Shown one piece after another: positions 39,145-59,379 of a DNA stretch of 64,000 bases (positions within the stretch are counted from its first letter, which is position 1; each line of letters opens with the position of its first letter). The position numbers were made by a program, and so were the translations under genes. The notes beneath the pieces were generated by a model. It worked only from the letters and a program-made list of their open reading frames with translations. It searched no databases and was not told where the DNA came from. This DNA comes from Amycolatopsis sp. FDAARGOS 1241 (lineage in GTDB: Bacteria; Actinomycetota; Actinomycetes; Mycobacteriales; Pseudonocardiaceae), in assembly GCF_016889705.1 (NCBI RefSeq), contig NZ_CP069526.1:6200001-6264000 (forward strand). The letters run 5' to 3'.

Positions 39145-39185
39145 GGTCACACTCCTTTGTGTGTCGGGTTGTGGGTCGGGGTTCG

Positions 39186-42100: not shown

Positions 42101-42116
42101 CTGAGCGGGCGCTTAG
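42101..42116. promoter_or_regulatory. Operator type 1 (CTNAGC-N4-GCTTAG), copy 1
   Basis: CTGAGC-GGGC-GCTTAG, 62 bases before the SDR start at 42178. Same arms and spacing as the site at 57401; one mismatch in symmetry. Confidence 0.6.
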
Positions 42117-42177
42117 TCAGGCAGACTGCGTGCCCGACCGCTTCTTGCTCAACGACGAGAACGACGAGGAGGTCCTC

Positions 42178-42939
42178 GTGACCGATTCCCCCTCCCGAGT
42201 TGCCATCGTGACCGGCGCCGGCCGCGGCATCGGCGCCGCCGTGGCCCGCCGCCTCGCTGCCGACGGGTTCGCCGTCGGGCTGCTGGACCTCGACGAGTCC
42301 GCGGTGAAGGCCGGCGCCGAGGCGATCGTCGCCGAGGGCGGCAAGGCTGTCGGCGTTTCGCTGGACGTCAGCGACGCCGACCAGGTCGAGGCCGCCGTCA
42401 CCCGCGTCGCCGAGGAACTCGGCGCGCCGACCGTGCTGGTCAACAACGCGGGCATCACCCGCGACAACCTGCTGTTCAAGATGACCGAGAACGACTGGGA
42501 CTCCGTGCTCGGCGTGCACCTCAAGGGCTCGTTCCTGATGACCCGCGCGGTGCAGAAGTACCAGACGCAGGAGAAGTGGGGCCGGATCGTCAACCTGTCC
42601 AGCACCTCCGCGCTGGGCAATCGCGGCCAGGTCAACTACTCCGCCGCCAAAGCCGGCATGCAGGGCTTCACCAAGACACTGGCCATCGAACTCGGCAAGT
42701 TCGGGATCACCGCCAACGCGATCGCCCCCGGGTTCATCGCCACGGACATGACCGCGGCCACCGCGGAGCGGCTCGGCATGGACTTCGAGGACTTCAAGGC
42801 CGCGGCCGCCTCGCAGATCCCCGTCCAGCGCGTAGGCACCCCGGACGACATCGCGCACGTGACGTCGTTCCTCGTGAGCGAAGGCGCGGGCTTCGTCTCG
42901 GGCCAGGTCATCTACGTCGCCGGCGGACCGAAGGACTGA
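42178..42939 (+). CDS. SDR-family 3-oxoacyl reductase (FabG-like)
   Basis: 253 residues from the GTG at 42178, with GAGGAGG five bases upstream; a longer 5' frame is rejected. NAD(P) motif TGAGRGIG, NNAG, the Ser-Tyr-Lys triad (LSSTSALG...YSAAK) and the FabG-like LLFKMTENDWDSVLGVHLKG and IAPGFIATDMT are all present. Interconverts a ketoacyl- and hydroxyacyl thioester. Its stop overlaps the MaoC start (TGATG), giving a reductase-hydratase pair. Could play the part of LvaD, which reduces the 4-keto group in levulinate breakdown (inference). Confidence 0.9.
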   Translation: MTDSPSRVAIVTGAGRGIGAAVARRLAADGFAVGLLDLDESAVKAGAEAIVAEGGKAVGVSLDVSDADQVEAAVTRVAEELGAPTVLVNNAGITRDNLLFKMTENDWDSVLGVHLKGSFLMTRAVQKYQTQEKWGRIVNLSSTSALGNRGQVNYSAAKAGMQGFTKTLAIELGKFGITANAIAPGFIATDMTAATAERLGMDFEDFKAAAASQIPVQRVGTPDDIAHVTSFLVSEGAGFVSGQVIYVAGGPKD

Positions 42940-43397
42940 TGGCCATGCGCGTGTTCACGAACATCGACGAGTTCGCCGCAGCGGCGGGTGAGCACCTCGG
43001 CGAGAGCGAGTGGCTCACCGTCACGCAGGAGCGGGTGCAGCGGTTCGCCGAAGCCACGGACGACTACCAGTGGATCCACCTCGACACCGAGAAGGCCGCC
43101 GCGGGCCCGTTCGGCACGACGATCGTCCACGGGTTCCTCACGCTGTCGCTGCTGCCGCACTTCGGCTCGCAGGTGTACCGGGTGGACGGCCTGAAGATGG
43201 GCATCAACTACGGCCTCAACAAGGTGCGCTTCCCGCAGCCGGTGAAGGTCGGTGCCAAGGTGCGCGGCAGCGCGGACCTGCTCGAGGTGACAGATGTGGC
43301 CGGTGGCAAGCAAGCTGTGGTGCGGTGGACCGTCGAAATCGACGGCGAGGCCAAGCCCGCCTGCGTCGCCGAGTTCGTCGCCCGCTTGATCGCCTGA
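42939..43397 (+). CDS. MaoC-family (R)-specific enoyl-CoA hydratase
   Basis: 152 residues, single hot-dog domain. The hydratase motif has D42 and H47 (ATDDYQWIHLD) and the second strand GPFGTTIVHGFLTLSLL. Adds water to trans-2-enoyl-CoA to give the (R)-3-hydroxyacyl-CoA. Overlaps the SDR by one base. A second in-frame ATG at 42945 is possible. Both genes are under the type 1 palindrome. Confidence 0.9.
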   Translation: MAMRVFTNIDEFAAAAGEHLGESEWLTVTQERVQRFAEATDDYQWIHLDTEKAAAGPFGTTIVHGFLTLSLLPHFGSQVYRVDGLKMGINYGLNKVRFPQPVKVGAKVRGSADLLEVTDVAGGKQAVVRWTVEIDGEAKPACVAEFVARLIA

Positions 43398-43439
43398 GCC
43401 GCCGGCCCGGGAACGCCCCGGGCCGGTGGCTGTACGACA

Positions 43440-43455
43440 TACCGACTAGTCGGTA
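43440..43455. promoter_or_regulatory. Operator type 2 (ACCGAC-YA-GTCGGT), copy 1
   Basis: TACCGACTAGTCGGTA, perfect 16-bp palindrome 30 bases before the kinase ATG, overlapping a TAGCGT -10-like box (43454-43459). Identical arms recur at 55706-55719. Confidence 0.75.
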
Positions 43456-43485
43456 GCGTGATTCGTCGAACCCCGAGGAGACCCG

Positions 43486-44511
43486 ATGACCCCGTCCGAC
43501 CCGCCCGGTCTCGACCTGGCCCGCCTGCGCGCGTACCTCGACGAGCAGCGGCCCGGCCTGGTCGCCGGCGAGCTGACCGGTGAAGTGGTGCAGGGCGGCC
43601 GCTCGAACCTCACGTACATCGTGGACGACGGCGCGAGCCGCTGGGTGGTGCGCCGCCCGCCGCTCGGGCACGTGCTGCCGACCGCGCACGACATGGCGCG
43701 CGAGTTCACGGTGATCTCCGGCCTGGCCGGCACGGCGGTCCCGGTGCCGGGCACCGTCCTGCTGTGCCAGGACCCGGATGTGCTCGGCGCGCAGTTCTAC
43801 GTCATGGAGTTCGTCGAGGGCACGCCGTACCGCACCGATGCCGAGCTCGCGAAGCTGGGCACCGAGCGCACGCGCGAGATCGGCTACCGGCTCGTGGACA
43901 CGCTCGTCGACCTGCACGCCGTGAACCCCGGCGACGTCGGGCTCGGCGACTTCGGGCGGCCGGACGGCTTCCTCGAACGCCAGCTGCGCCGCTGGAAGAA
44001 GCAGCTCGACGGCTCCCGCAGCCGCGACCTGCCCGGTGCGGATGAGCTGCACGACAGCCTCGCCGCGAAGCTGCCCACCTCGCCGCCGGCGACGATCGTG
44101 CACGGCGACTACCGCCTCGACAACGTGCTCGTCGACGCCGACGACCGCATCACCGCCGTGCTCGACTGGGAGATGTCCACGCTCGGCGACCCGCTCACGG
44201 ACCTCGCGCTGCTGGTGGCCTACGCCGAGCGCGACAAGGTTTCGCTGCAGATGGTGTCGAACGCCAGCTCGGCACCCGGCTACCCGAGCCCCGACGAGGT
44301 GATCGCCCGCTACGCCGAACTCTCCGGGCGCGACGTGTCGGCGCTCAACTGGTACGTGAGCTTCGCGTTCTTCAAGCTCGCGGTGATCCTGGAAGGCATC
44401 TACTTCCGCTACCGCAAAGGCCAGACCGTCGGGGCCGGGTTCGAGAGCATCGGCGATGCCGTGGCCCCGCTCGTCTCGCACGGCTACGAGACGCTCAAAG
44501 AGGAGAAGTAG
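43486..44511 (+). CDS. APH-type kinase, LvaA/ACAD10-11 kinase-domain homologue
   Basis: 341 residues of the aminoglycoside-phosphotransferase fold. Visible: GGRSNLTYIVDDG (nucleotide loop), the hinge FYVMEFVEG, the catalytic loop HGDYRLDN (206-213, D208) and the metal Asp in LDWEMSTLGDPLTDL (D227). It is followed two bases later by an ACAD11-type dehydrogenase. The same two domains are fused in human ACAD10/11 and adjacent as LvaA and LvaC in Pseudomonas putida, where the kinase phosphorylates a 4-hydroxyacyl-CoA. So a hydroxyacyl-CoA, not an antibiotic, is the likely substrate (inference from family and context). Confidence 0.82.
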   Translation: MTPSDPPGLDLARLRAYLDEQRPGLVAGELTGEVVQGGRSNLTYIVDDGASRWVVRRPPLGHVLPTAHDMAREFTVISGLAGTAVPVPGTVLLCQDPDVLGAQFYVMEFVEGTPYRTDAELAKLGTERTREIGYRLVDTLVDLHAVNPGDVGLGDFGRPDGFLERQLRRWKKQLDGSRSRDLPGADELHDSLAAKLPTSPPATIVHGDYRLDNVLVDADDRITAVLDWEMSTLGDPLTDLALLVAYAERDKVSLQMVSNASSAPGYPSPDEVIARYAELSGRDVSALNWYVSFAFFKLAVILEGIYFRYRKGQTVGAGFESIGDAVAPLVSHGYETLKEEK

Positions 44512-44513
44512 TC

Positions 44514-45737
44514 ATGGACTTCGCGTTCGACTCCCGCACCGAGGAGCTGCGCGGGCAGCTCCTCGAGTTCATGGACTCGCACGTCTACCCCGCCGAACCG
44601 GTCTTCGAGGAGCAGCTGGCCCAGCGGGAGAACCCGTGGACGTCGGTGCCGATCGTCGAGGAGCTCAAGGCCGAGGCGCGCAAGCGCGGCCTGTGGAACT
44701 TCTTCCTGCCGGGTGAGGACGGCGCGGGCCTGACCAACTTGCAGTACGCGCCGCTGGCCGAGATCACGGGCCGCAGCCCGCGGCTCGCGCCGACGGCCGT
44801 GAACTGCGCCGCGCCGGACACCGGGAACATGGAAGTGCTCCACATGTTCGGTTCGGAGCAGCAGAAGAAGCAGTGGCTGCAGCCGTTGCTGGACGGCGAG
44901 ATCCGCTCCGCGTTCGCGATGACCGAACCCGACGTGGCCTCGTCCGACGCGCGCAACATCGCCACGAGCATCCGCCGCGACGGCGACGAGTACGTGGTCA
45001 ACGGCCGCAAGTGGTTCATCTCCGGCGCGATGAACCCGAACTGCAAGATCATGATCGTGATGGGCAAGACCGATCCGGACGCCCAGCCACACCGGCAGCA
45101 GAGCATGATCCTCGTCCCGCGCGATACCCCGGGCGTCACGATCAAGCGCGGCATGCACGTGTTCGGCTACACCGACGGCGACCACGGCGGTCACGCCGAG
45201 GTGCTCTTCGACGGCGTGCGCGTGCCGGCCGAAAACCTCATCGCCACCGAGGGCGCCGGGTTCGCGATCGCCCAGGCCCGACTCGGCCCCGGCCGCATCC
45301 ACCACTGCATGCGCGCGATCGGCATGGCCGAGCGGGCGCTGGAGCTCATGTGCCGCCGCACGCTCTCGCGCGAGACGTTCGGGAAGCCGATCGCCGAGTC
45401 CGGGGTGGTGCAGGACTGGATCGCCGAATCGCGCGTGAAGATCGAGCAGCAGCGGCTGCTGGTGCTCAAGACCGCGTGGCTGATGGACACCGTGGGCAAC
45501 CAGGGCGCGCACACGGAAATCCAGGCCATCAAGATCTCCACGCCGATCACCGTGGAGTGGATCCTCGACAAGGCCGTGCAGGCCCACGGCGCCGGTGGCG
45601 TGAGCCAGGACTTCCCGCTGGCCGAGCTGTGGGCGGGCGTGCGCACGCTGCGCCTGGCCGACGGGCCGGACGAGGTGCACAAGCGGTCGCTGGCGCGCCG
45701 CGAGCTGAAGAAGTACCGGGCGGAGGCAGGCCGATGA
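44514..45737 (+). CDS. Acyl-CoA dehydrogenase-family protein, LvaC/ACAD11 type
   Basis: 407 residues. ACAD signatures FAMTEPDVASSDARNI and YVVNGRKWFISGAMNP, then RETFGKPIAESGVVQDWIAE. At the place of the usual catalytic Glu (EGTSE) it has RLADGPDEVHKRSLAR, with Asp at 383, the ADGPDEVH signature of the ACAD10/11 and LvaC branch. In that branch the enzyme removes phosphate from 4-phosphooxyacyl-CoA on the way to an enoyl-CoA (established for the lva and ACAD10/11 systems). Starts two bases after the kinase, so the pair is translationally linked. Confidence 0.85.
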   Translation: MDFAFDSRTEELRGQLLEFMDSHVYPAEPVFEEQLAQRENPWTSVPIVEELKAEARKRGLWNFFLPGEDGAGLTNLQYAPLAEITGRSPRLAPTAVNCAAPDTGNMEVLHMFGSEQQKKQWLQPLLDGEIRSAFAMTEPDVASSDARNIATSIRRDGDEYVVNGRKWFISGAMNPNCKIMIVMGKTDPDAQPHRQQSMILVPRDTPGVTIKRGMHVFGYTDGDHGGHAEVLFDGVRVPAENLIATEGAGFAIAQARLGPGRIHHCMRAIGMAERALELMCRRTLSRETFGKPIAESGVVQDWIAESRVKIEQQRLLVLKTAWLMDTVGNQGAHTEIQAIKISTPITVEWILDKAVQAHGAGGVSQDFPLAELWAGVRTLRLADGPDEVHKRSLARRELKKYRAEAGR

Positions 45738-46918
45738 CCGTGACCGCGGACGACCTGCGCGGGCAGGTGGAACAGTTCCTCGCCGCGCACGACCCGAAGA
45801 CCACCGAGCGGCTGGAGTTCCTGCGCGCCCGCTACGACGCGGGGCTCGCGTGGGTGCACTTCCCCGAGGGCCTCGGGGGCCAGGCCGCGCCGCGGGCGCT
45901 GCAGCCGGTCGTCGACGCCGCGTTCGCCGCGGCCGGCGCGCCGGACAACGACCCGCGCCGCATCGGTATCGGCCTCGGCATGGCCGCGCCGACCATCCTC
46001 GCGTTCGGCACCGACGAGCAGCGCAAGCGCTACCTGCGTCCACTGTGGACGGGGGTGGAGGTGTGGTGCCAGCTGTTCAGTGAACCCGGCGCCGGCTCCG
46101 ACCTCGCCGCGCTCGGCACGCGCGCGGTGCGCGACGGCGACGACTGGGTCGTGACCGGGCAGAAGGTGTGGACCTCGGGCGCGCACAACGCGCAGTGGGC
46201 CATCCTCGTCACCCGCACTGACCCGGACGTGCCCAAGCACCAGGGCATGACGTACTTCATGTGCGACATGACCGCCCCGGGGGTCGAGGTGCGGCCACTG
46301 CGCCAGATCACCGGTGAGGCCGAGTTCAACGAGGTCTTCCTCACCGGTGTACGGATCCCCGATGCGCAGCGGCTCGGCGCCGTCGGCGAAGGCTGGAAGG
46401 TCGCGCAGACCACGCTGATGAACGAGCGCGTGGCCATCGGCGGCAACGCGCTGCCGCGCGAGGGCGGCCTGGTCGGCATGGTCGCGAAGACCTGGCGCGA
46501 GCGGCCCGAGCTGCGCACGCCGGAGCTGCGCGACCGGCTCGTGCAGCACTGGGTGGAGGCCGAATCGTTGCGGCTGGCGGGTTCGCGGCTGCGCCAGCAG
46601 CTCGCGGCGGGCGCGCCCGGGCCGGAGGGCTCCGCGATGAAGGTGGCGTTCTCCGAGCTGAACCAGAAGCTCACCGGCCTGGAGATCGAGCTGCTCGGGG
46701 AAGAGGGCCTGCGCTACGACGACTGGACGCTGCGGCGGCCGGACAAGGTCGACTTCCTCGGGCGCGAAGCGGGGTACCGCTACCTGCGCGCGAAGGGCAA
46801 TTCGATCGAGGGCGGGACCTCGGAGATCCTGCGCAACATCATCTCCGAACGCGTGCTCGGGCTGCCGTCCGAGCCGCGGGTGGACAAGGACGTCGCCTGG
46901 AAGGACCTGCCGCGATGA
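45734..46918 (+). CDS. Acyl-CoA dehydrogenase, catalytic partner of a heteromeric pair
   Basis: 394 residues from the ATG overlapping the previous stop (ATGA). Motifs: QLFSEPGAGSDLAALGTRA, WVVTGQKVWTSGAHNA, MNERVAIGGNALP, and near the C-terminus GNSIEGGTSEILRNIISERV with the catalytic Glu. Such genes directly followed by a second, Glu-less ACAD gene form alpha2beta2 enzymes acting on CoA thioesters of bulky side chains, as in mycobacterial steroid breakdown. Fourth gene of the operon from 42178 or third from the kinase promoter. Confidence 0.88.
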   Translation: MTVTADDLRGQVEQFLAAHDPKTTERLEFLRARYDAGLAWVHFPEGLGGQAAPRALQPVVDAAFAAAGAPDNDPRRIGIGLGMAAPTILAFGTDEQRKRYLRPLWTGVEVWCQLFSEPGAGSDLAALGTRAVRDGDDWVVTGQKVWTSGAHNAQWAILVTRTDPDVPKHQGMTYFMCDMTAPGVEVRPLRQITGEAEFNEVFLTGVRIPDAQRLGAVGEGWKVAQTTLMNERVAIGGNALPREGGLVGMVAKTWRERPELRTPELRDRLVQHWVEAESLRLAGSRLRQQLAAGAPGPEGSAMKVAFSELNQKLTGLEIELLGEEGLRYDDWTLRRPDKVDFLGREAGYRYLRAKGNSIEGGTSEILRNIISERVLGLPSEPRVDKDVAWKDLPR

Positions 46919-48033
46919 GCGAACTGCCCACCCCGGACCTGCTGTACTCCGACGTCGAAGAGGACCTGCGCGCGTCGGTGCGCGACCTGCTCACCGACCA
47001 GGTCTCCCCCGCCGCGCTGCTCGCCCGGGTGGAGACGAGCGAGCCGTACGACCTGAAGCTGTGGCGCACGCTCGCCGCCGACCTCGGCGCGGCCGGGCTG
47101 ATGGTGCCCGAAGAGCTCGGCGGGCACGGCGCTTCGGCGCGCGAAGTGGCCGTGGTGCTGGAAGAACTGGGCCGCAGCGTGGCGCCGGTGCCCTACCTCG
47201 GCAGCGCGGTGCTGGCCACCTCGGCGCTGCTGGCCGCGGGCGGTGCCGTCGCGGCCGAGCTGCTGGGCCGCCTGGCTCCCGGTGAGCTGATCGGCGCGCT
47301 GGCCGTGCCGCTCTCGACCGCGCCGGGTTCGCCGTTCCCCACCTCCGTTTCGGTGAGCACCGACGGCACGCTGAGCGGGCGCGTGGGCACGGTCGCCGAC
47401 GGGTCCGTTTCCGAGGTGTTCGTGGTGCCCGCGACCGGTCCGGACGGACCCGGGCTGTACGCGGTCGAAGCGCCGGCAGCCCAGGTGACCGAGCTGGTGT
47501 CGCTGGACCTCACGCGGCGGATCGCCGACGTCGAGCTGGCCGGCGCTCCCGCGCGGCTGATCGTCGCCGGCGCAGCGGCCGAAGCGGCGCTGGACACGGC
47601 GTTGAGCACGGCGGCGGGCCTGCTCGCCTCGGAGCAGACCGGGCTCACCGAATGGGCGCTGACCACCACCGTCACCTACCTCAAGGGCCGCTACCAGTTC
47701 GGCCGTCCGGTCGGCGGGTTCCAGTCGCTCAAGCACCGCCTGGCGAACGTGTACACGGACCTGGTCAACGCGCGCGCCACCGCCCGGTACGCCGCCGACG
47801 CGCTCGCCGGCGGGTACGACGTGCCGATCGCGGTGGCCGTCGCCCAGGCCCGGTGCGCGCCGATCGCGGTGCACGCCGTCGAGGAGGCGATCCAGCTGCA
47901 CGGCGGGATCGGGATGACGTGGGAGCACCCCGCGCACCTGTTCCTCAAGCGCGCCAAGAGCGACGAGCTCGCATTCGGCACGCCGGGGCGCCACCGCGCG
48001 CGGCTGGCAGATCTCGTGGACCTGCCCGCCTGA
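46915..48033 (+). CDS. Acyl-CoA dehydrogenase-like subunit lacking the catalytic Glu
   Basis: 372 residues, start overlapping the previous stop (ATGA). General ACAD layout is kept: WRTLAADLGAAGLMVPEELG, TVTYLKGRYQFGRPVGGFQ and IQLHGGIGMTWEHPAHLF. But the C-terminal EGTSE block is absent; the sequence ends KSDELAFGTPGRHRARLADL. The middle FAD loop is also degenerate (AVPLSTAPGSPF). This matches the non-catalytic partner of heterotetrameric acyl-CoA dehydrogenases, with 45734 as its mate. Confidence 0.85.
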   Translation: MSELPTPDLLYSDVEEDLRASVRDLLTDQVSPAALLARVETSEPYDLKLWRTLAADLGAAGLMVPEELGGHGASAREVAVVLEELGRSVAPVPYLGSAVLATSALLAAGGAVAAELLGRLAPGELIGALAVPLSTAPGSPFPTSVSVSTDGTLSGRVGTVADGSVSEVFVVPATGPDGPGLYAVEAPAAQVTELVSLDLTRRIADVELAGAPARLIVAGAAAEAALDTALSTAAGLLASEQTGLTEWALTTTVTYLKGRYQFGRPVGGFQSLKHRLANVYTDLVNARATARYAADALAGGYDVPIAVAVAQARCAPIAVHAVEEAIQLHGGIGMTWEHPAHLFLKRAKSDELAFGTPGRHRARLADLVDLPA

Positions 48034-48085
48034 ATCGGGGTCCGGAGCCCCGCCGGCCGCTCGTCTGACGGGGCTCCTGCACGTC

Positions 48086-48112
48086 GTGGACACTGTGGAC
48101 ACTGCGGACACT
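48086..48112. repeat. Tandem 9-bp repeat
   Basis: Three units GTGGACACT, GTGGACACT, GCGGACACT in the 168-bp gap before the hydrolase gene. Confidence 0.6.
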
Positions 48113-48201
48113 GTGCGCGGGGCGCGCAGGCGTAAGAACAGGCGGCAAGAGTGCACTTTTTCCTGTGCAGCGGGGAGCTTCGGCTTCCTAGCCTGGTGAT
48201 C

Positions 48202-49059
48202 ATGGTGACGGACCCCGAGCAGCTGACGCTCACCGTCGGCACGCACCGGCACAGTGCGCTCGCGGCCGGACCCGAGTCCGGGGAGCTCGTCCTGTTGCTG
48301 CACGGATGGGCCGAGTTCGCCGATTCGTGGACCGCGGAGCTTGGCGCGCTCGGCGCGGCCGGTTACCGCGCCGTCGCCGTCGACCAGCGCGGGTACGCCG
48401 CCGGCGCGCGCCCGCTGGACGTCGACCAGTACTCGGTGCGCCACCTCATCACCGACGTGATCGCCTTCGCCGCGGCGCTCGGCCACGACCGCTTCCACCT
48501 CGTCGCCCACGACTGGGGCGGCATGGTCGGCTGGGCGTTCGCCAGCGCGCACCCGGACCAGCTCCGCTCGCTGACCGTGCTCACCACCCCGCACCCGGCC
48601 GCCCTGCACCGCGCGGCGACCGACGACCAGCGGCAGTTCCGCGACCTCGGCTACGTGCGCTTCTTCCGAAACCCCGACGGGCGCGCCGAGGCCTCCCTGC
48701 TGGCCGACGACGCCGCCGGACTGCGCGCCACGTACGGCGACCGCGTGCCGGCCGAGCTGGTCGAACGCAACATCTCGCGCCTCACCGAACCGGGTGCGCT
48801 GACCGCGGCCCTCAACTGGTACCGCGGCGGCCCGGCCACCGACGAGTTCGACATCCCCGCCGGCCGCATCTCCGTGCCGACGCTGTACCTGTGGGGCAGC
48901 GAAGACCCGTACCTGGGGCGCACGGCCGCCGAGCTGACGCGCTCGTACGTCGACGGGTCGTACGAGTTCGAGGTGGTCGAGGGCGCGAGCCACTGGCTGC
49001 CGGAGGAGGCCGCGGACTTCATCGTGCCGCGCATCTTGGACCACCTGCGCCGGCATTGA
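48202..49059 (+). CDS. Alpha/beta-hydrolase, epoxide hydrolase/dehalogenase type
   Basis: 285 residues from the ATG at 48202; TAGCCT (48189-48194) is seven bases upstream, giving a leaderless layout. Oxyanion region LLLHGWAEFADSW, nucleophile elbow VAHDWGG with Asp104 (not Ser), acid in LWGSEDPYLG and base in GASHWLPEEA. The Asp nucleophile places it with epoxide hydrolases and haloalkane dehalogenases. It may open an epoxide formed during degradation of the pathway substrate (inference). Its last 48 bases have decayed tandem copies downstream. Confidence 0.82.
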   Translation: MVTDPEQLTLTVGTHRHSALAAGPESGELVLLLHGWAEFADSWTAELGALGAAGYRAVAVDQRGYAAGARPLDVDQYSVRHLITDVIAFAAALGHDRFHLVAHDWGGMVGWAFASAHPDQLRSLTVLTTPHPAALHRAATDDQRQFRDLGYVRFFRNPDGRAEASLLADDAAGLRATYGDRVPAELVERNISRLTEPGALTAALNWYRGGPATDEFDIPAGRISVPTLYLWGSEDPYLGRTAAELTRSYVDGSYEFEVVEGASHWLPEEAADFIVPRILDHLRRH

Positions 49060-49350
49060 TTCGCCCGCCACCGCGACCCCCTCGCATGGCTCGCCGTTTC
49101 GGCCCCCATGGCCCGCCCCGCACCCAGCCACAAACCGAGAGAACCCCGGCTACCGGACTCAGCGGACTTCATCACGCCTTGTACCTCGGACCACCTGAGC
49201 CGGCACTGATTCGCCCGCCACCGCAACGCCCTCGCATGCATCCCCGGTCCGGTTCACCTGACACCCACCCACAGCGCGAGATCGCGCCGGCTACTGGACT
49301 CAGCGGACTTCATCACGCCCCGCACCTCGGGACACCTGAGCCGACATCAA
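49012..49350. repeat. Decayed tandem duplication of the hydrolase 3' end
   Basis: The block GCGGACTTCATC...CCTG(A)GCCGGCA is found at 49012 (in the gene), 49162 and 49303, periods 150 and 141. Each is followed by TTCGC(C/T)C and a CTCGCATG block. Copies 2 and 3 lie in non-coding DNA with in-frame decay. Confidence 0.7.
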
Positions 49351-49574
49351 TTCGCTCCCCACCGCGCCGCTCGCATGCCTCCCCGCTCCGCTCCCCATCG
49401 CCCGCACCCACACCCAGCCACACCGCGAGATCGCTCAAGAGCGATCTCGCCGTCTCGGCGAAGCCGAGACAAACAACACGGAAATGTGTTCGCAATTTCC
49501 GAAAACGTCTTGGCAATCATCGGGTCTTAGCGTCGCGCGTGCCCCTCCCCACTTGCTCGGAAGCGAGGCAGTAC
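49060..49574. other. 515-bp intergenic region made largely of repeats
   Basis: Holds tandem copies of the hydrolase 3' end and copy A of the intergenic inverted-repeat element (49270-49479). No gene is supported. Confidence 0.65.
49270..49479. repeat. Intergenic inverted-repeat element, copy A
   Basis: Left part 49270-49306 matches copy B 52285-52321 at 33 of 37 bases. Right part 49441-49479 matches 52373-52411 at 36 of 39. Contains a perfect 12-bp inverted repeat GCGAGATCGCTC/GAGCGATCTCGC (49425-49450) and hairpin GTCTCGGC-GAA-GCCGAGAC (49452-49470). Could also act as a double terminator. Confidence 0.7.
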
Positions 49575-51452
49575 GTGGCAAGACCCAGAAGACTCACCCG
49601 GCGATCCGTGCTCGGCGGCGCCGGGGCGGCGGTCGCCGGTGGCACCCTTTCTCTCACCCTGGGTGCGGCGCCGGCGAGCTCGGCGCCGTCCCCCGCGGCC
49701 GGCGGGCCGGCTCTGCCGTCGGTGAACCAGATCCCCCACCGCAGCCGGCTCGTGGACTACGAGATCACCGAGCTCGCCGCGCTGCTGCGCGCGGGCCGCA
49801 CGTCGAGCGTCGAAATCACCCAGGCCTACCTCGACCGGATCTCGAAGTTCAACGGCCCCTTCGAGAAGTACGGCGACAACGGCGCGTACAACGCGTTCGT
49901 GCGCGTCGACACCGCGAGCGCGCTCGCCGCCGCGCGAACTGCCGACCAGCGGATCTCGAACTGGCACCGGCACGGCGGCGACCTGTCGCCGTTGTGCGGG
50001 ATCCCCATGGGCATCAAGGACTCCGTGGGCATCAAGGGCCTGAACGCGCAGGACGGCAGCCCGGCGTTCGAGGGCAACAAGGCGCTGCAGGACGCCACGG
50101 TGGTCGCCCGGCTGCGCGCGGCCGGCGTGGTGCTGCTGGGCAACACCATCTGCTCGGCGTTCTCGGGCTCGATCACCGGCACGTTCGCGGGCAACGCCTG
50201 GAGCCCGGCGCACGTGCCGGGCGGATCGAGCCAGGGCTCAGGAGTCGCGCCCATCGCACGGCTGGCCGCGGGCTGCATCGGCGAGGAGACCGGCGGCAGC
50301 ATCATCATGCCGTCGGCCGCGAACGGCGCCAGCGGGATCAAGCCGTCGCTGGGCACGGTGTCGATCGCCGGGCTCATGCCACTCTCACCGGGTTACGACG
50401 TGCTCGGCCCGATCTCCCGCAGCGCACGGGACTCCGCGCTGATCCTGAGCACGATCCTCGGACCGGATCCGGTGAACGACCCGCAGACGCTCTCGGCACC
50501 CCTGCCGTTCCCGGCGATCCCGTCGTCGCCGCGCCCCGGGCGGACTCCGTTGCAGGGCCAGACGATCGGCATTCCGCAGACGGACTGGATGAACGTGGGC
50601 GGCACTATCAAGACCGGGGTCAGCCCGCAGGACACCTACGGCGCCGAGCACCTGAAGGCGTTCAACCGGCTGGTGGGCCAGCTGAAGAGCCTCGGCGCGC
50701 AGGTGAAGGAGTTCCCCGGCCTGGACATGACCGACCCCGCACGAAACCCGTACTTCGCATCGGCGGACGTGCTGGCGACGGTGGACGGCTCGCCCGTGTC
50801 GCCCTCGGCTGCGGTGGTGAACGCGAACCGGTACGAGGTCCGGTTCGTCGCGGCGGTGGCGGACTTCTGCGCGAGCGGCATCCCGACGCCCGACGCCGTG
50901 GCGACCCTCACCGGCCAGTACGGCCGGCGCGCGCCCGGCGAGACGGCGGCGAGTTTCGCGAGCGCCGACCGCTTCAACGGCGGCATCCCCGCCTCCGTTC
51001 GCTACGAGGGCGAACAGCGGCGGCGCCGGCTCATCGCCAACTACACGCGAGCGCTGGAAGACGCCGGCGTCGATTTCATGCTCGTGCTGGCGCTGGGCGA
51101 CGTGATCGGCGAACGCGCCGGCGGTGGCCTCGGCTTCCCGGTTTACCGGGCGTACTACCAGGTGCCGAACGCGCTGGGCTGGCCGATGGTCAGCTTCCCC
51201 GTCGGCTACACCGCGGGCCTGCCGATCTCGGCCCAGTTCTGGGGACCGCGCTTCGCGGAGCCCGCCCTGGTCCAGTCCATGGTGGACTACCAGGCGCACT
51301 TCCCCGAGTACCACACCGCGGCCCCACCGGACCCGGTGTTCGGGACCCTCACCCCGAAGACAGCGCCGCGCGCTCTCACCACCCCGGCCTTCGAGGACCC
51401 GACCAACGACCCGATCCTGGGCGAAGAAGCGATCAGGAGGGCTCTCTCATGA
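49575..51452 (+). CDS. Tat-exported amidase (amidase-signature family)
   Basis: 625 residues from a GTG (weak GCGAGG upstream). The N-terminus is a Tat signal: RRLTRRSVLGGAGAAVAGG with an ASA-type cleavage near residue 37. Amidase-signature triad: Lys in GIPMGIKDS, Ser in VPGGSSQGSG, and the nucleophilic Ser in GEETGGSIIMPS. Hydrolyses an amide, outside the membrane after folding in the cytoplasm. Substrate unknown. Translationally coupled to a 66-residue partner gene. The two-gene unit is flanked by the inverted-repeat element copies. Confidence 0.87.
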   Translation: MARPRRLTRRSVLGGAGAAVAGGTLSLTLGAAPASSAPSPAAGGPALPSVNQIPHRSRLVDYEITELAALLRAGRTSSVEITQAYLDRISKFNGPFEKYGDNGAYNAFVRVDTASALAAARTADQRISNWHRHGGDLSPLCGIPMGIKDSVGIKGLNAQDGSPAFEGNKALQDATVVARLRAAGVVLLGNTICSAFSGSITGTFAGNAWSPAHVPGGSSQGSGVAPIARLAAGCIGEETGGSIIMPSAANGASGIKPSLGTVSIAGLMPLSPGYDVLGPISRSARDSALILSTILGPDPVNDPQTLSAPLPFPAIPSSPRPGRTPLQGQTIGIPQTDWMNVGGTIKTGVSPQDTYGAEHLKAFNRLVGQLKSLGAQVKEFPGLDMTDPARNPYFASADVLATVDGSPVSPSAAVVNANRYEVRFVAAVADFCASGIPTPDAVATLTGQYGRRAPGETAASFASADRFNGGIPASVRYEGEQRRRRLIANYTRALEDAGVDFMLVLALGDVIGERAGGGLGFPVYRAYYQVPNALGWPMVSFPVGYTAGLPISAQFWGPRFAEPALVQSMVDYQAHFPEYHTAAPPDPVFGTLTPKTAPRALTTPAFEDPTNDPILGEEAIRRALS

Positions 51453-51649
51453 GCGTCGCCGAACCCGCCCGGTTCCTGACCGTGGACTTCTCGACCCCGG
51501 TGGACATCGGGTTCCTCCCGCAGCACGCGGAGAACCCGGCCGTGCCCCCGCTGACGATCGGCTGGGCTCCCCGGATCGGTACGACCTACCTCCCGTTCGA
51601 CCCGGCGGACGAAACGGTGCCGGGCAGCAGGACGTCCCCGCGCCCGTGA
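51449..51649 (+). CDS. Small protein of unknown function coupled to the amidase
   Basis: 66 residues. The ATG overlaps the amidase stop (ATGA) and has a perfect AGGAGG (51435-51440). Sequence: acidic and proline-rich (EPARFLTVDFSTPVDIGFLP, then GWAPRIGTTYLPFDPADETV), with no signal or membrane helix. I do not recognise it. The coupling suggests it assists the amidase or completes its pathway. Confidence 0.55.
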   Translation: MSVAEPARFLTVDFSTPVDIGFLPQHAENPAVPPLTIGWAPRIGTTYLPFDPADETVPGSRTSPRP

Positions 51650-51652
51650 TCC

Positions 51653-51702
51653 CCGGCGGGCACCGGCAACCGGCGGGCGCCGGAAATGTCGGTGCCCGCC
51701 GG
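51653..51702. terminator. Hairpin terminator after the amidase pair
   Basis: CCGGCGGGCACC (51653-51664) pairs perfectly with GGTGCCCGCCGG (51691-51702), with further GC pairing inside. Begins four bases after the small gene's stop. Confidence 0.6.
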
Positions 51703-51714
51703 TAGCGTCCGACC

Positions 51715-52206
51715 ATGACCGAACCCCCGGCCTGGGCCCACGAGAAACCCCACATCGCCGCCCCCGACCCCGCGTGGGCCGCGCGCGGCGCTGCTCTGTG
51801 CGCGCGTGTGGCATCGCTGCTGACGCCGTGGCTGGTCGACGGCGTGGTGCACGTCGGCTCGACGTCTGTGCCGGGTCTGGCGGCGAAACCGGTGGTGGAC
51901 GTAATGGCTTCGGTGCGGGACGTCGACGAGGTGGTGACTTCGGCCGGCGCGGCCCTGTCTGCCGACGGCTGGTCCTATGTCCCGCCTTCACTGGACGTCG
52001 GCGCGCCCTACCGCCGCTTCTTCGTCCTACCCGACTCCACCGCTGAGCACCGGCTGGCCCACCTGCACGTCCTCCCCGCGAACCACCCGCGCTGGCACGC
52101 CCAGCTCACCTTCCGCGACGCCCTCCGCGCCGACCCATCGCTGGCCGCGCAGTACGCCGACCTCAAACGCCGCCTCGCCACGTCCGAAACCGACCGCGAA
52201 CGCTAA
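51715..52206 (+). CDS. GrpB-family nucleotidyltransferase-like protein
   Basis: 163 residues. The GrpB signature VVHVGSTSVPGLAAKPVVDV (about 44-63) carries the GS...D pattern of the nucleotidyltransferase fold; later YRRFFVLPDS and LAHLHVLPANHPRW are also typical. The family occurs alone or fused to other enzymes; its reaction is not established. The gene stands alone between a terminator and the intergenic element. Confidence 0.82.
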   Translation: MTEPPAWAHEKPHIAAPDPAWAARGAALCARVASLLTPWLVDGVVHVGSTSVPGLAAKPVVDVMASVRDVDEVVTSAGAALSADGWSYVPPSLDVGAPYRRFFVLPDSTAEHRLAHLHVLPANHPRWHAQLTFRDALRADPSLAAQYADLKRRLATSETDRER

Positions 52207-52284
52207 CAGCCGGCAAAACGACGTTCGTCACGAGCGTTCTGGCCCAGCATGGGGTGGTGCTCCCCACAGACTGAGGAACCCGAC

Positions 52285-52411
52285 CACAGCGCGAGATCGC
52301 GCCGGTTTCCGGATTCAGCGGTGCGATCGCCGCCGGCCGATCCGACCGCTGAATCCAGAAGCCGGCTCAAAGGCGATCTCGCCGCCTCGGCGAAGCCGAG
52401 GCAGACAACAC
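52285..52411. repeat. Intergenic inverted-repeat element, copy B
   Basis: Perfect 12-bp arms GGATTCAGCGGT (52311-52322) and ACCGCTGAATCC (52345-52356), extending outward to 22-bp arms with two mismatches. Then hairpin GCCTCGGC-GAA-GCCGAGGC (52384-52402). The right end lies inside the TetR gene and supplies its last codons. Confidence 0.7.
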
Positions 52412-52996
52412 AGCCAACAGCATGTCGGCGAAGTGGTCGCCCACTTCGCGGGCCGAGAGTGGGCCGCCGCGGCGGTACCACGTGCCCAGGTGGTGCACTG
52501 CGCCGAAGAAGAAGTCGACGACCAGGTCGGCAGGTTTGTCGCTGCGGAATTCGCCGGAGGCCTGGCCTTCTTCGATGAGGCGGCGGAAGCGTTCGTGGTA
52601 CTTGCGGCGCTCGGCGCGCACCATCTTGCGCTTTTCGGCGCTGAGCTGATGCATGGACTGCAGGAAGATGGTGTTGTCGTCGAGGTTGTCGATGCTGCTG
52701 ACGACCACGTCGGACGCGGCGGCGGCCAGGCGTTCACGCAAGGGCGCGGCGCTGGAGGCGACGCGTTCGAGCTGGGAGGTCTGCTCGCGCAGCACGCGGG
52801 CGTAGATCTCGTAGAGCAGGTCGTCCTTCGAGCCGAAGTAGTGGTACAGCGCGCCCTTGGTGACGCCCGCCGCCTCGACGATCTCCTGCACCGACGTGCG
52901 GTCGAAGCCCTTTTTGGCGAAGAGCTTCGTCGCCTGCTTCAGCAGGCGCCGGGGCACGGCAGCCTGCTCGTCGGGAGCGGTTTTCGCTCGCGTCAC
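52367..52996 (-). CDS. TetR-family regulator of the acyl-CoA/lactonase operon
   Basis: 209 residues from the GTG at 52996 (GGAGGGG seven bases upstream). The HTH is FAKKGFDRTSVQEIVEAAGV followed by TKGALYHYFGSKDDLL. The C-terminal domain reads like the fatty-acid-responsive TetR group (inference). The final residues (LSASASPRRRDRL) are encoded by the intergenic element, so the C-terminus has been replaced. Third gene after the CoA ligase and lactonase. The likely reader of the ACCGACYAGTCGGT sites at 43440 and 55706. Confidence 0.85.
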   Translation of the reverse strand: MTRAKTAPDEQAAVPRRLLKQATKLFAKKGFDRTSVQEIVEAAGVTKGALYHYFGSKDDLLYEIYARVLREQTSQLERVASSAAPLRERLAAAASDVVVSSIDNLDDNTIFLQSMHQLSAEKRKMVRAERRKYHERFRRLIEEGQASGEFRSDKPADLVVDFFFGAVHHLGTWYRRGGPLSAREVGDHFADMLLAVLSASASPRRRDRL

Positions 52997-53048
52997 CACC
53001 CCACCCCTCCCCTCGCGGCCCGCCGAGAAAGCCCAGCGTACCGTTCCG

Positions 53049-54023
53049 TCAGTACGCGCCGCCGTGGTCGAGCAAGCGGCGTGGGTTGTCCACGAGCATC
53101 GTCGTGAGGTCGGCTTCGCTGACGCCGCGTTCACGCAGCGCGGGCAGCACATCGTTGGTGATGTGCAGGTAGTGCCAGTTGGGCAGCACCGCTTCGCGCG
53201 TCGGCGCCTCGAGCCAGTCGAAGTAGCACGACGCGTCGTGCGAGAGCACCATGCTGCGGGCGTACCCGCGCTCGCACAGCGCCGCCACGGTCGCCACGCG
53301 CTGCTCGAAGGGCAGGTAGACATCGATGCCGAAGCGGTCCATGCCGAGCAGCGACCCGCGGTCGGCGATCGCCCTGAGGTAGCCGAGGTCGGCCGAGTCG
53401 CCGCAGTGCCCGATCAGCACGCGGGACAGGTCCACACCCTCGGCCTCGAACACGTCCTGCTGCTCGAGCCCGCGCCGCGTGCCCGCGTGCGTGTGGGTCA
53501 TGATCGGCACGCCCGTGGCCCGGTGCGCTTGCGCGACCGCGCGCAGCACCCGCTCCACCCCCGGCGTCATCCCCGGCTCGTCCGTCGCGCACTTGAGCAC
53601 ACCGGCCTTCACGCCGGTACCGGAGATGCCGTCGGTGATGTCGCCGACGAACAGCTCGACCAGCGGTTCGGCCCCGCCCAGCAGCGTGCCCGGTCCGCGC
53701 AGGGACAGATAGTGCGGCAGGTCGTTGTAGGTGTACAACCCGGTCGCGACCACGATGTTCAGGTCCACCTCGGCGGCGACCTTCTGCACGCGCGGCAGGT
53801 AGCGCCCGAGCCCGATCACGGTCGGATCCACGATCGTGTCGATCCCGGCGTCCTTCAGCGTCCGCAGCTTCGCGATCGCCTCCGGCACGTGCACGGTCTC
53901 GTCGAAGCCCTCGTGCTCCGGGTAGTTGGCGACGAACTCCGGGCTCAACACGAAGATGTGCTCGTGCATCAGCACCTTGCCCAGTTCGGCCGGCTCAACC
54001 GCGCCGCGGACCGTCTCGACCAT
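53049..54023 (-). CDS. Phosphotriesterase-family metallohydrolase, probable lactonase
   Basis: 324 residues from the ATG at 54023 (GGGAGG three bases upstream); an ATG at 54038 overlapping the ligase stop is an alternative. The binuclear-metal set is visible: HEHIF (H20, H22), carbamylated Lys in GVKAGVLKCAT, His in THTHAGTRRG and LIGHCGDS, and Asp in SHDASCYFDW. PTE-like proteins of this shape mostly open lactones. Between a CoA ligase and a TetR gene, it probably makes the hydroxy acid that the ligase activates (inference). Confidence 0.83.
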   Translation of the reverse strand: MVETVRGAVEPAELGKVLMHEHIFVLSPEFVANYPEHEGFDETVHVPEAIAKLRTLKDAGIDTIVDPTVIGLGRYLPRVQKVAAEVDLNIVVATGLYTYNDLPHYLSLRGPGTLLGGAEPLVELFVGDITDGISGTGVKAGVLKCATDEPGMTPGVERVLRAVAQAHRATGVPIMTHTHAGTRRGLEQQDVFEAEGVDLSRVLIGHCGDSADLGYLRAIADRGSLLGMDRFGIDVYLPFEQRVATVAALCERGYARSMVLSHDASCYFDWLEAPTREAVLPNWHYLHITNDVLPALRERGVSEADLTTMLVDNPRRLLDHGGAY

Positions 54024-54031
54024 CGTCCTCC

Positions 54032-55687
54032 CTAACATCGGGCGCGCAGCTCGCGCCTCAGGATCTTCCCGCTGGTGGTCTTCGGCAGCTCGGCGAGCAC
54101 CTCGACCGATCGGGGGTACTTGTAGGCGGCCAGCCGCTCCCGGCAGTACGCCACGAGCTCGTCCGGATCCGGCTGCGCACCGGGCGCCGGGCTCACGTAC
54201 GCCTTCACGGTCTCGCCGCGGTACGCGTCGGGCACCCCGACCACCGCGGCTTCCCGCACGGCCGGGTGCGTGTACAGCACGTCTTCGACCTCACGCGGCC
54301 ACACCTTGAACCCGGCCGCGTTGATCATGTCCTTCTTGCGGTCCACCACGTAGACCCAGCCGCGCTCGTCCATGAACCCGACATCGCCGGTGAGCAGCCG
54401 GCCACCGGGCAGCGCCTCGGCCGTCGCGTCCGGCCGGTTCCAGTACCCGGGCACGACCATCGGCCCCTCGACGGCGATCTCCCCCGCCTCGCCGAACGGG
54501 AGCTCTTTCCCGTCGTCGGAGAGGATCCGCACCACGACACCGGGCACCGGCAGACCGATCGACAGCGTGCCCGAAGCCGGGTCGACCGGCGCTTCCATGC
54601 CGCTGGGCACGACGACGCAGCCGGCCGTGGTCTCGGTAAGGCCGTAGCCGTTGTGGATGTAGTGGCCGAAGCGGTCGCGGAACGTGCCCACGACCGCGGG
54701 CGGCAGTGCCGCGCCGCCGGAATACAGCGCCTCGAACGACGCGAAGTGCTCCGGCGTCACGTCCGGGTGCGCCATCAGCGCCATGTACGCCGTCGACGGC
54801 CCGACCATGTACGCCGGCTGGTGCTCCCGCAGCGCGGCGAGCACCACGCCGGCCTCGAAACGGTACGCGAGCGCCAGCGTGCCCGCGATCTCGATGGCAT
54901 AGGCGATCTCGCACACCATCCCGGTGATGTGGAACAGCGGCGCGAGCGCGAACACCGTGGCACCGGCGCGGACCTCGCCCGAGCGGGCGAGGATCACCGC
55001 GTTGGTCCCGATGTTGCCGTGGGTGTTGGTGGCGCCCTTGGGTTTCCCGCTCGTGCCCGACGTGTAGCTGATCAGGGCGACATCGTCGAGGCCGAACCCC
55101 GGGTCGGGCGGCGGGTCGCCGGGTGTCGAGCGCGCGATCTCGAGCAGATCGGCCGCGCCGGGCGTCGCCTCACGCCGGATCTTGCCGAGCACGCGCTCGT
55201 CGTCGCGGGTCTGCAAGTCGAGCTCGCTCGTGGTCAGGGCGATGGCCAGGCCGTGCTCGGCAGCGAGCGCGCCGACGTACTCGTGCCACGCGTGCTGCGA
55301 GCAGACGATCGCCGTGACACCGGCATCGGTGAGCACGTGGGCCAGTTCCCCCGTGCGGTACATCGGGTTCACTGGCACCACGATCCCGCCGGCCTTCCAC
55401 GCGGCGAGCAGCGTGAGCACGAACTGCGGCACGTTCTGCAGCACCAGCGCGAGCCGGTCGCCACGGCCGAACCCGGCTGCCGTGAGGTGGCGCGCGACCG
55501 CGTCGGACAGCTCGTCGAGCTCGCGGTAGGAGACGCGGCCGTCGAAGTACGCCAGCGCGGCGGTGTCCGGGGCCTGCGCGACGCTCCGGCGGAAGGTGGC
55601 CAGCGGCGTGGCCGGCGCGAACTCCTGGGCGGCGGCGCGGCGCTCGTCGTAGCTCGCGACCCACGGCTTCGCGTCGTACCAGCTCAT
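54032..55687 (-). CDS. AMP-forming acyl-CoA ligase (FadD-like)
   Basis: 551 residues. P-loop SYTSGTSGKPKGATNTH, NGYGLTETT, the hinge LLTGDVGFMDERGWVYVVDR and the C-terminal LPKTTSGKILRRELR with the catalytic Lys are all intact. Activates a carboxylic acid with ATP and CoA. First gene of an operon with the lactonase and TetR genes; AGGGAGG precedes the ATG and the type 2 operator lies 19 bases upstream. Plays the part of LvaE in the proposed pathway. Confidence 0.9.
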   Translation of the reverse strand: MSWYDAKPWVASYDERRAAAQEFAPATPLATFRRSVAQAPDTAALAYFDGRVSYRELDELSDAVARHLTAAGFGRGDRLALVLQNVPQFVLTLLAAWKAGGIVVPVNPMYRTGELAHVLTDAGVTAIVCSQHAWHEYVGALAAEHGLAIALTTSELDLQTRDDERVLGKIRREATPGAADLLEIARSTPGDPPPDPGFGLDDVALISYTSGTSGKPKGATNTHGNIGTNAVILARSGEVRAGATVFALAPLFHITGMVCEIAYAIEIAGTLALAYRFEAGVVLAALREHQPAYMVGPSTAYMALMAHPDVTPEHFASFEALYSGGAALPPAVVGTFRDRFGHYIHNGYGLTETTAGCVVVPSGMEAPVDPASGTLSIGLPVPGVVVRILSDDGKELPFGEAGEIAVEGPMVVPGYWNRPDATAEALPGGRLLTGDVGFMDERGWVYVVDRKKDMINAAGFKVWPREVEDVLYTHPAVREAAVVGVPDAYRGETVKAYVSPAPGAQPDPDELVAYCRERLAAYKYPRSVEVLAELPKTTSGKILRRELRARC

Positions 55688-55705
55688 CCGAGTCCTCCCT
55701 TGGAC

Positions 55706-55719
55706 ACCGACCAGTCGGT
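55706..55719. promoter_or_regulatory. Operator type 2 (ACCGAC-YA-GTCGGT), copy 2
   Basis: ACCGAC-CA-GTCGGT, arms identical to those at 43440-43455, 19 bases upstream of the ligase start, over its promoter region. Confidence 0.75.
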
Positions 55720-55807
55720 ATGACGACGCTAGAGATCCGCCCGGTCACGCGTCAAGACCCGGGAGGCGGTCGTCCACTGTGGGGGGCACAGAGGGGCACT
55801 GAGGAGC

Positions 55808-55841
55808 ACGGGCGGGCACCGCGAAACCGGTGCCCGCCCGT
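55808..55841 (-). terminator. Strong hairpin terminator of the SDR operon
   Basis: ACGGGCGGGCACC (55808-55820) pairs perfectly over 13 bp with GGTGCCCGCCCGT (55829-55841), 8-base loop, seven bases after the SDR stop. Confidence 0.7.
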
Positions 55842-55847
55842 GAGTGC

Positions 55848-57367: not shown

Positions 57368-57400
57368 AGCACTGGTCTCCTGTTCTGCAGCGGACGGCGG

Positions 57401-57416
57401 CTAAGCGCTTGCTTAG
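57401..57416. promoter_or_regulatory. Operator type 1 (CTNAGC-N4-GCTTAG), copy 2
   Basis: CTAAGC-GCTT-GCTTAG, perfect 6-bp arms with 4-base spacer, 33 bases before the SDR start. Matches 42101-42116. Confidence 0.7.
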
Positions 57417-59376: not shown

Positions 59377-59379
59377 CGC

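Follow-up and report, generated by a model that had tools for sequence, protein, structure and literature searches.

What becomes of a γ-lactone once a phosphotriesterase (PTE)-like lactonase has opened its ring is the question raised by a locus of Amycolatopsis sp. FDAARGOS 1241, in which a gene for such a lactonase lies close to genes for a kinase and an acyl-CoA dehydrogenase (ACAD) of the types joined in mammalian ACAD10 and ACAD11. Actinobacterial PTE-like lactonases have been studied mainly as quorum quenchers. For the lactonase family, exact substrates and biological roles were still given as unknown in the relevant part of a 2012 paper (PMC3468530), and the account drawn on here for Rhodococcus erythropolis has QsdA opening γ-lactones and FadD/QsdC activating the resulting acid, the open chain being left to β- or ω-oxidation (PMC3689677). 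The locus lies within a stretch of 64,000 nucleotides (contig NZ_CP069526.1, positions 6,200,001 to 6,264,000), referred to as the window, which is part of a 9.8-Mb genome coded G000; coordinates count from the first letter of the window unless they are given for the genome.

We propose that the locus represents a two-armed catabolic regulon for γ-lactones and 4-hydroxy (or 4-keto) acids, and put the probability of this reading at roughly 0.63. The lactonase would open the lactone to a 4-hydroxy acid, which a FadD-like ligase would convert to the CoA thioester, and 4-keto acids would be fed in after reduction by one of two short-chain dehydrogenases/reductases (SDRs), SDR16 or SDR17. By analogy to ACAD10/11 and to LvaA/LvaC, as far as the chemistry is covered in the portions of the reports used here (PMC12440821, PMC11342911), the kinase would phosphorylate the 4-hydroxyl of the 4-hydroxyacyl-CoA, and ACAD1 would remove the phosphate via its flavin adenine dinucleotide (FAD) without net oxidation, yielding a 2-enoyl-CoA. 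This product would be hydrated by a MaoC enzyme, oxidized by a FabG-like SDR and cleaved by a thiolase encoded elsewhere, and a presumed ACAD2/ACAD3 heteromer may desaturate the shortened, or a bulky, acyl-CoA. A TetR repressor would control both the kinase-ACAD genes and its own operon (CoA ligase, lactonase and TetR) by binding the palindrome ACCGACNNGTCGGT upstream of each. A 4-hydroxy rather than a 5-hydroxy substrate is favored because of the kinase partner, since one round of β-oxidation turns a 5-hydroxyl into a 3-hydroxyl. The regulon would supply the step after ring opening that the Rhodococcus account leaves as β- or ω-oxidation (PMC3689677). Enzyme activities, substrate and binding of the regulator to its site are deduced from genes, residues, neighborhood conservation and a shared palindrome, all of which are seen in the sequence itself.

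The kinase and its acyl-CoA dehydrogenase partner

The proposed 4-hydroxyacyl-CoA kinase (43486-44511, plus strand; Pfam PF01636), which has the fold of aminoglycoside phosphotransferases (APH) and is of the ACAD10/11 kinase-domain or LvaA type, carries the motif HGDYRLDN (H206-N213) and is followed after two bases by ACAD1 (44514-45737, plus strand), a dehydrogenase of the ACAD10/11-LvaC type with the motif ADGPDEVH and the proposed phosphate eliminator. Both genes and both motifs had been described in an earlier note made from the sequence alone and were found as stated. In a comparison with structures of the Protein Data Bank (PDB), the kinase scores 231 bits with 9o56, 184 and 180 bits with mouse ACAD11 and 180 bits with 3dxp, the next matches being 9fsg (58 bits) and 3ats (48 bits), versus less than 30 bits each with macrolide, hygromycin and viomycin kinases; against the NCBIfam APH(3') model it reaches 39.8 bits at a cut-off of 205. 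An antibiotic-resistance enzyme, which had been considered as a candidate, was rejected on these scores, and the separation of the kinase from antibiotic kinases (180-231 bits with ACAD11-type proteins) is as the earlier note had expected. The chain title of 9o56 reads aminoglycoside phosphotransferase, yet by sequence this protein belongs to the same family as the window kinase. Misleading titles, either acyl-CoA dehydrogenase or aminoglycoside phosphotransferase, were encountered on several stand-alone ACAD11-type kinases (3dxp and 9o56; P0043, P0096 and P0119).

ACAD1 scores 457-467 bits with mouse and human ACAD11 and 455 bits with 4hr3, compared with 154 bits for the next ACAD, and identity to mouse ACAD11 amounts to 34% for the kinase and 56% for ACAD1. 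According to the active-site portion of the ACAD11 study, R626, H634 and R637 lie beside the catalytic D753 (PMC12440821). The residues R256, R261, H264, R267 and D383 of ACAD1 correspond to R626, R631, H634, R637 and D753 of ACAD11, so that all five are present, and this R/R/H/R/D set is kept in each of 96 full-length ACAD rows, drawn from loci with a kinase or with an ACAD match, among which the same gene may be represented more than once. The set is lacking in ACAD2 and ACAD3 of the same locus. In the kinase, D208, N213 and R165 are the counterparts of ACAD11 D220, N225 and R176, and R72 is the Arg beside the αC Glu, the paper's number R86 not being matched by residue count.

Phylogenetic trees place ACAD1 in an actinobacterial clade (support 100/99, 8 rows) within a 17-row fork (89/99) that includes ACAD11, and the kinase in a 10-row clade (100/99), next to a group that joins the ACAD11 kinase, 3dxp and a Sphingobium kinase. 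These trees comprise 23 and 20 rows, the ordinary ACADs being represented by a single sequence whose long branch is flagged, and LvaA/LvaC are represented by a Pseudoalteromonas lva-like proxy only, no labelled LvaA or LvaC having appeared among the 60 of 135 plasmid records listed in each of two listings. Of the phylogeny suggested in the earlier note, the grouping of ACAD1 with ACAD11 was thus obtained; the trees hold neither labelled LvaA/LvaC nor antibiotic kinases. As judged from sequence similarity, the folds of kinase and ACAD are settled, and the two proteins are a split bacterial form of ACAD10/11 and LvaA/LvaC, in line with the likeness first drawn in that note and borne out by the scores, the five-residue set and the common fork.

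The pair by itself has to be regarded as ordinary and not as the unusual feature it had been taken for, because such pairs are common: three more are encoded in the same genome (genome positions 4539977/4541021, 5619009/5617951 and 9473818/9472523), and at least 8000 database candidates, all of those that were scored, reach E≤1e-20. The three additional pairs (G000:C1 4539977-4542226, 5617951-5619980 and 9472523-9474654) show both gene orders, and their ACADs read VDGP, YDGP and YDGP instead of ADGP and keep the R/R/H/R/D set. Another setting of the pair is seen on a Sphingobium plasmid (AP027328.1), where ACAD and kinase have genes for an epoxide hydrolase, a P450 and a 3-hydroxyacyl-CoA dehydrogenase as neighbors.

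Gene order around the pair and the lactonase

The kinds of enzymes required, namely kinase, ACAD, CoA ligase and SDR, are all present in the locus, spread over two divergently placed arms and not gathered in one operon. The plus-strand arm starts with a FabG-like SDR (42178-42939; Pfam, NCBIfam), the proposed 3-hydroxyacyl-CoA dehydrogenase, and a MaoC-type enoyl-CoA hydratase (approximately 42939-43397, start approximate; Pfam PF01575), which is separated from the kinase by 88 bases. Downstream of ACAD1 it continues with ACAD2 (approximately 45734-46918), which keeps EGGTSE and is nearest to the PimC large subunit (186.5 bits, cut-off 624), and ACAD3 (46915-48033), which is nearest to the small subunits IpdE2 and PimD (186 bits with IpdE2, cut-off 450), both assigned by Pfam and NCBIfam; the two probably form one heteromer. 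On the minus strand follow SDR17 (56615-57367; Pfam), SDR16 (55848-56618; Pfam), which may act as a 4-ketoacyl/4-hydroxyacyl oxidoreductase, the FadD-like acyl-CoA ligase (54032-55687; Pfam, NCBIfam), the PTE-like lactonase of the PPH/QsdA type (53049-54038; Pfam PF02126) and the TetR-family regulator TetR13 (approximately 52367-52999, start approximate; Pfam). The lactonase and ligase genes overlap by 7 bases, and TetR13 has the same orientation and lies about 50 bases 3' of the lactonase. This regulator gene, which is central to the regulon reading, was absent from the earlier note.

The lactonase matches PPH (PDB 4if2) with 450 bits over nearly its whole length. Its metal-site motifs are complete with respect to the binuclear ligands of PTE-like lactonases, which we take to be H/H/K/H/H/D, and H25, H27, K149, THTH at 181, GHCGD at 210 and SHD at 266 are all shared with 4if2. 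Another member of the family, SisLac, hydrolyzes γ-lactones according to the pertinent section of its description (PMC3468530). TetR13 scores 92 bits with the uncharacterized structure 3dcf and 73 bits with KstR2, and no entry titled QsdR was seen among the 60 listed of 216 structure matches, whose titles are generic.

Conservation was assessed in the best 80 of at least 584 encoding stretches, 30 of them from Amycolatopsis, Prauserella and Saccharomonospora (the Amycolatopsis group) and 50 others mainly from Streptomyces. Members were counted at ≥50% identity, and all counts are lower bounds, the right-hand genes being undercounted because the flanks end at 10 kb or at a contig end. An ACAD1 homologue of >60% identity follows the kinase match on the same strand after 3-103 bases in 74 of the 80 loci, and at least two of the six remaining ones are broken by a contig end. 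In the Amycolatopsis group, the plus-strand arm is nearly constant (ACAD1 in 30, SDR and MaoC in 29 each, ACAD2 and ACAD3 in 28 each), and the other arm is found less often (TetR13 in 17, SDR16 in 16, SDR17 in 15, lactonase in 11, CoA ligase in 8). The 50 other loci contain ACAD1 and TetR13 in 44 cases each, SDR16 in 41, CoA ligase in 34, MaoC in 11 and the lactonase in none, and SDR16 homologues are present in 57 of all 80 loci. Kinase, ACAD, TetR, CoA ligase and SDR16 seem to constitute an older core, to which the Amycolatopsis group would have added SDR-MaoC, ACAD2/ACAD3 and in part the lactonase.

An arrangement of both arms on a single strand is observed in a record of Tsukamurella tyrosinosolvens (NZ_LR134470.1), which reads thiolase, SDR, SDR, NADPH:quinone oxidoreductase, HAD phosphatase, FabG, MaoC, kinase, three ACADs, lactonase and CoA ligase. 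Ten genes of this co-directional run are homologues of window genes (three SDRs, MaoC, kinase, three ACADs, lactonase and CoA ligase), with identities of 66% (SDR17), 60% (SDR16), 78% (FabG-like SDR), 54% (MaoC), 53% (kinase), 75% (ACAD1), 72% (ACAD2), 50% (ACAD3), 52% (lactonase) and 40% (ligase). The record is labelled as a plasmid; its listed annotation names no replication gene and includes a sigma factor, helicases and further housekeeping-like genes, and it may be a piece of chromosome instead.

Within the order, the lactonase is found at E≤1e-70 in 45 of 121 genomes. Among 40 regions sampled from the 59 matches outside the Amycolatopsis genome itself, some of them cut by contig ends, five (L136, L149, L154, L157 and L160) encode a kinase homologue no more than 10 kb away from the lactonase, as compared to a chance expectation of 0.37 (75 kinases at E≤1e-40 in about 180 Mb of 35 genomes; Poisson P about 4e-5). 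Without two same-genus regions the count is 4 of 38 (Poisson P 5e-4); these values, like the Fisher value given below, ignore shared ancestry. In region L149 (G060:C46 8779-13129), lactonase, kinase and CoA ligase are oriented divergently from a TetR gene recognized by eye; lactonase and kinase overlap by 4 bases if the longest frames are taken (a later kinase start would leave a gap of about 50 bases), and the ligase follows 15 bases on. This layout is close to the published qsdR-qsdA-qsdC order with a kinase inserted. In region L160, the gene directly after the lactonase is of the ACAD11 type. Two further records were viewed, one from Cupriavidus, in which no kinase was found beside the ACAD, and one from Nonomuraea (NZ_LT559118.1), unannotated in this stretch, which has homologues of ACAD1-ACAD2-ACAD3 and of TetR13 and no kinase match within 21 kb.

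Palindromic sites and the boundaries of the unit

A comparison of upstream regions yielded a palindrome (motif A, ACCGACNNGTCGGT, of the form ACCGAC-N2-GTCGGT) shared by the kinase and by the CoA ligase-lactonase-TetR genes. One exact site (ACCGACTAGTCGGT, 43441-43454) is located 31 bases before the kinase and another one (ACCGACCAGTCGGT, 55706-55719) 18 bases before the CoA ligase, which makes two of only seven exact sites in the whole genome; with up to one mismatch the genome has 146 sites versus 62 for the reversed pattern. In the relatives, where 150 bases upstream were scanned at ≤1 mismatch unless stated otherwise, the motif precedes the kinase in 63 of 80 loci (19/30 in the Amycolatopsis group, 44/50 in the others) and the CoA ligase in 6 of 8 loci of the Amycolatopsis group, and it occurs before SDR16 in 37 of 40 other loci, where SDR16 sits upstream of the ligase, if two mismatches are admitted. 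Shuffled upstream sequences gave 0.0-0.2 matches per set. At ≤1 mismatch, no site was found before ACAD1 (0/74), MaoC (0/31), the FabG-like SDR (0/29), ACAD3 (0/28), SDR17 (0/14) or the lactonase (0/10), and TetR13 itself is preceded by the motif in 2 of 17 loci of the Amycolatopsis group and 0 of 44 others.

The motif stands before the kinase in 58 of 61 loci with a TetR13 homologue and in 5 of 19 without one (Fisher 4e-9, uncorrected for ancestry), a co-occurrence from which we infer TetR13 as its likely binding protein. The earlier proposal that the lactonase feeds the kinase-ACAD pair is accordingly supported from two sides, by the gene order in other lineages and by the shared operator-like site. 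In the TetR13-bearing Nonomuraea record, motif A sites at 9975 and 14015 lie immediately upstream of ACAD1 and past the TetR gene. Two of the remaining exact sites in the Amycolatopsis genome are intergenic, one (G000:C1 7172953) about 185 bases before genes resembling CoA-transferase subunits and one (9658706) between TetR-like and MFS-like genes, all recognized by eye. It is possible that they mark further regulon members; the indications were judged too weak for such an assignment.

A second palindrome, motif B (TAAGCGNNCGCTTA, of the form TAAGCG-N2-CGCTTA), is found with one mismatch each before the SDR-MaoC genes (42102-42115) and before SDR17-SDR16 (57402-57415). In the relatives it precedes the SDR in 13 of 29 and SDR17 in 14 of 14 cases. 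Elsewhere in the genome, motif B sites at G000:C1 399882, 1868279 and 2786362 stand before an ACAD gene (just upstream) and before P450-like and LLM-type-oxidoreductase-like genes, as assigned by eye.

The unit is more fittingly delimited as about 42102-57415 than as the interval 42178-55687 proposed before, and contains one CoA ligase and three SDRs. MaoC, the two further ACADs and the PTE-family lactonase are indeed encoded in that interval, and so is the first SDR, with the other two located beyond its right end. Of the two CoA ligases attributed to the locus, only that at 54032-55687 belongs to it; the other (37216-39423) lies outside, has no assigned match in the 80 related loci and was rejected as a member. 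The genes between the arms were likewise not retained as conserved members. These are an α/β-hydrolase (48151-49059), which occurs at ≥50% identity in 8/30 Amycolatopsis-group and 0/50 other loci, an amidase with an N-terminus that appears Tat-like by eye (approximately 49587-51452; 0/80 loci), and a GrpB-like gene (51715-52206; 5/30 and 0/50). Further along, the window contains a separate catabolic set (58072-60669 and 62406-63758) in which genes for an aconitase X (PF04412) and an FAD-dependent oxidoreductase are neighbors and an MFS transporter follows further on.

Alternative readings and comparison with known systems

Several observations weigh against a lactone regulon. The lactonase is not universal (11/30 loci of the Amycolatopsis group and 0/50 others, both lower bounds), and 35 of the 40 sampled lactonase regions have no kinase nearby, so that this enzyme may be an optional extra. 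The Tsukamurella ligase is only 40% identical to that of the window. Motif A is missing before the CoA ligase in all 33 other loci and before SDR16 at one mismatch (0/40 other loci, 0/14 in the Amycolatopsis group), it was not detected at ≤1 mismatch in the Tsukamurella record or in regions L149, L154 and L160, and three of the five further exact sites fall inside mechanically called reading frames. Because a loose scan of the window (16-base form, ≤3 mismatches) gave 3 sites versus 2.7 in shuffles, what speaks for this motif is its exact sites together with its conservation. Motif B, found at the SDR-MaoC and SDR17-SDR16 arms, is a different palindrome, and the case for it rests on the relatives, since its counts are no better than the controls in the genome (7 sites at ≤1 mismatch versus 9 for the reversed pattern) and in the window (2 versus 0.9 expected, a number reached by 22 of 100 shuffles).

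The retention of kinase, ACAD, TetR, CoA ligase and SDR16, without a lactonase match, in most of the 50 other loci also agrees with an actinobacterial counterpart of the lva system, whose core task would be the use of free 4-keto or 4-hydroxy acids such as levulinate, with the lactonase as an occasional accessory in some Amycolatopsis strains. The enzyme kinds retained match LvaA, LvaC, LvaE and LvaD as far as the portion of the lva report used here describes them (PMC6692424). However, the lactonase stands beside a kinase or ACAD in Tsukamurella and in genomes of other families, neither LvaB nor an lva-type regulator was seen in the locus, and the SDRs of the Pseudoalteromonas lva-like proxy share no more than 27% identity with SDR16, which renders this alternative rather unlikely in our view. 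A different substrate class is suggested by the nearest relatives of ACAD3 (IpdE2) and ACAD2 (PimC) and by the similarity of TetR13 to KstR2, although the latter is exceeded by that to 3dcf: the pair might remove one hydroxyl from bulky ring-derived acids, such as terpenoid or steroid fragments, and ACAD2/ACAD3 might act on the ring-bearing side chain. The IpdE2 and PimC scores stay far below the curated cut-offs, and the conserved window genes include none for steroid or terpene ring cleavage, leaving this idea improbable. Finally, the passenger genes between the arms (hydrolase, amidase and GrpB), the abundance of β-oxidation genes in the genome (30 ACAD matches) and the many sampled lactonases without a kinase nearby would fit two unrelated sets of β-oxidation genes brought close by chance, which is highly improbable in view of the shared motif A site, its co-occurrence with TetR13 and the co-directional run in Tsukamurella.

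We retain the two-armed regulon for γ-lactones and 4-hydroxy acids as the preferred reading. In a broader extension, to which we give slightly less than even odds, some actinobacterial PTE-like lactonases would be the entry enzymes of a γ-lactone carbon-use pathway with an ACAD10/11-type phosphorylate-and-eliminate step as its missing middle part, in which a TetR protein recognizing ACCGACNNGTCGGT and a lactone- or hydroxyacyl-derived ligand would switch on ring opening, CoA activation and dehydroxylation jointly. The locus places candidate enzymes for removal of the 4-hydroxyl beside the ring opener, by which the function of PTE-like lactonases and the fate of opened lactones become testable in actinobacteria from soil that are harmless. 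The separate kinase and ACAD proteins offer a handle on the redox-neutral chemistry of ACAD10/11, and TetR13 is a candidate sensor of lactones or hydroxy acids.

The function of mammalian ACAD10/11-type enzymes was reported only in 2024-2025. In the parts of these studies considered here (PMC12440821, PMC11342911), the same types of kinase and ACAD domains, the catalytic Asp and the residues equivalent to the R256/H264/R267 cluster of ACAD1 are described, whereas the window enzymes are separate proteins encoded two bases apart instead of a fusion and adjoin lactonase, CoA ligase and TetR genes. The lva operon of Pseudomonas putida, as portrayed in the corresponding sections of its report (PMC6692424), shares the enzyme kinds kinase, phospho-eliminating ACAD, CoA ligase and SDR. 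In contrast to it, the window contains a TetR gene instead of the σ54-type LvaR and no recognized LvaB-like gene (DUF6285, a conceivable stand-in for LvaB, has no match in the genome), and adds the lactonase, MaoC, further SDRs and ACAD2/ACAD3. The qsd operon of Rhodococcus erythropolis likewise places a PTE-like lactonase beside a fatty-acyl-CoA ligase, together with a TetR gene, and no kinase step is named for it in the parts of the literature drawn on (PMC6262395, PMC4640858, PMC3689677). The window adds kinase and ACAD, and its TetR gene, whose product is at most a possible relative of QsdR, is co-directional with the lactonase, unlike the divergent qsdR. With PPH (4if2), the window lactonase has the metal-site motifs in common, and it differs in standing beside the proposed downstream enzymes. 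Among the papers listed in searches of open-licence PMC text, none was seen to link a PTE-like lactonase to a kinase of the LvaA/ACAD11 type. As far as the sequence can tell, the locus combines known parts and presents a good genomic case for one pathway, its new aspect being the setting of lactonase, ligase and TetR regulator and not the kinase-ACAD pair.

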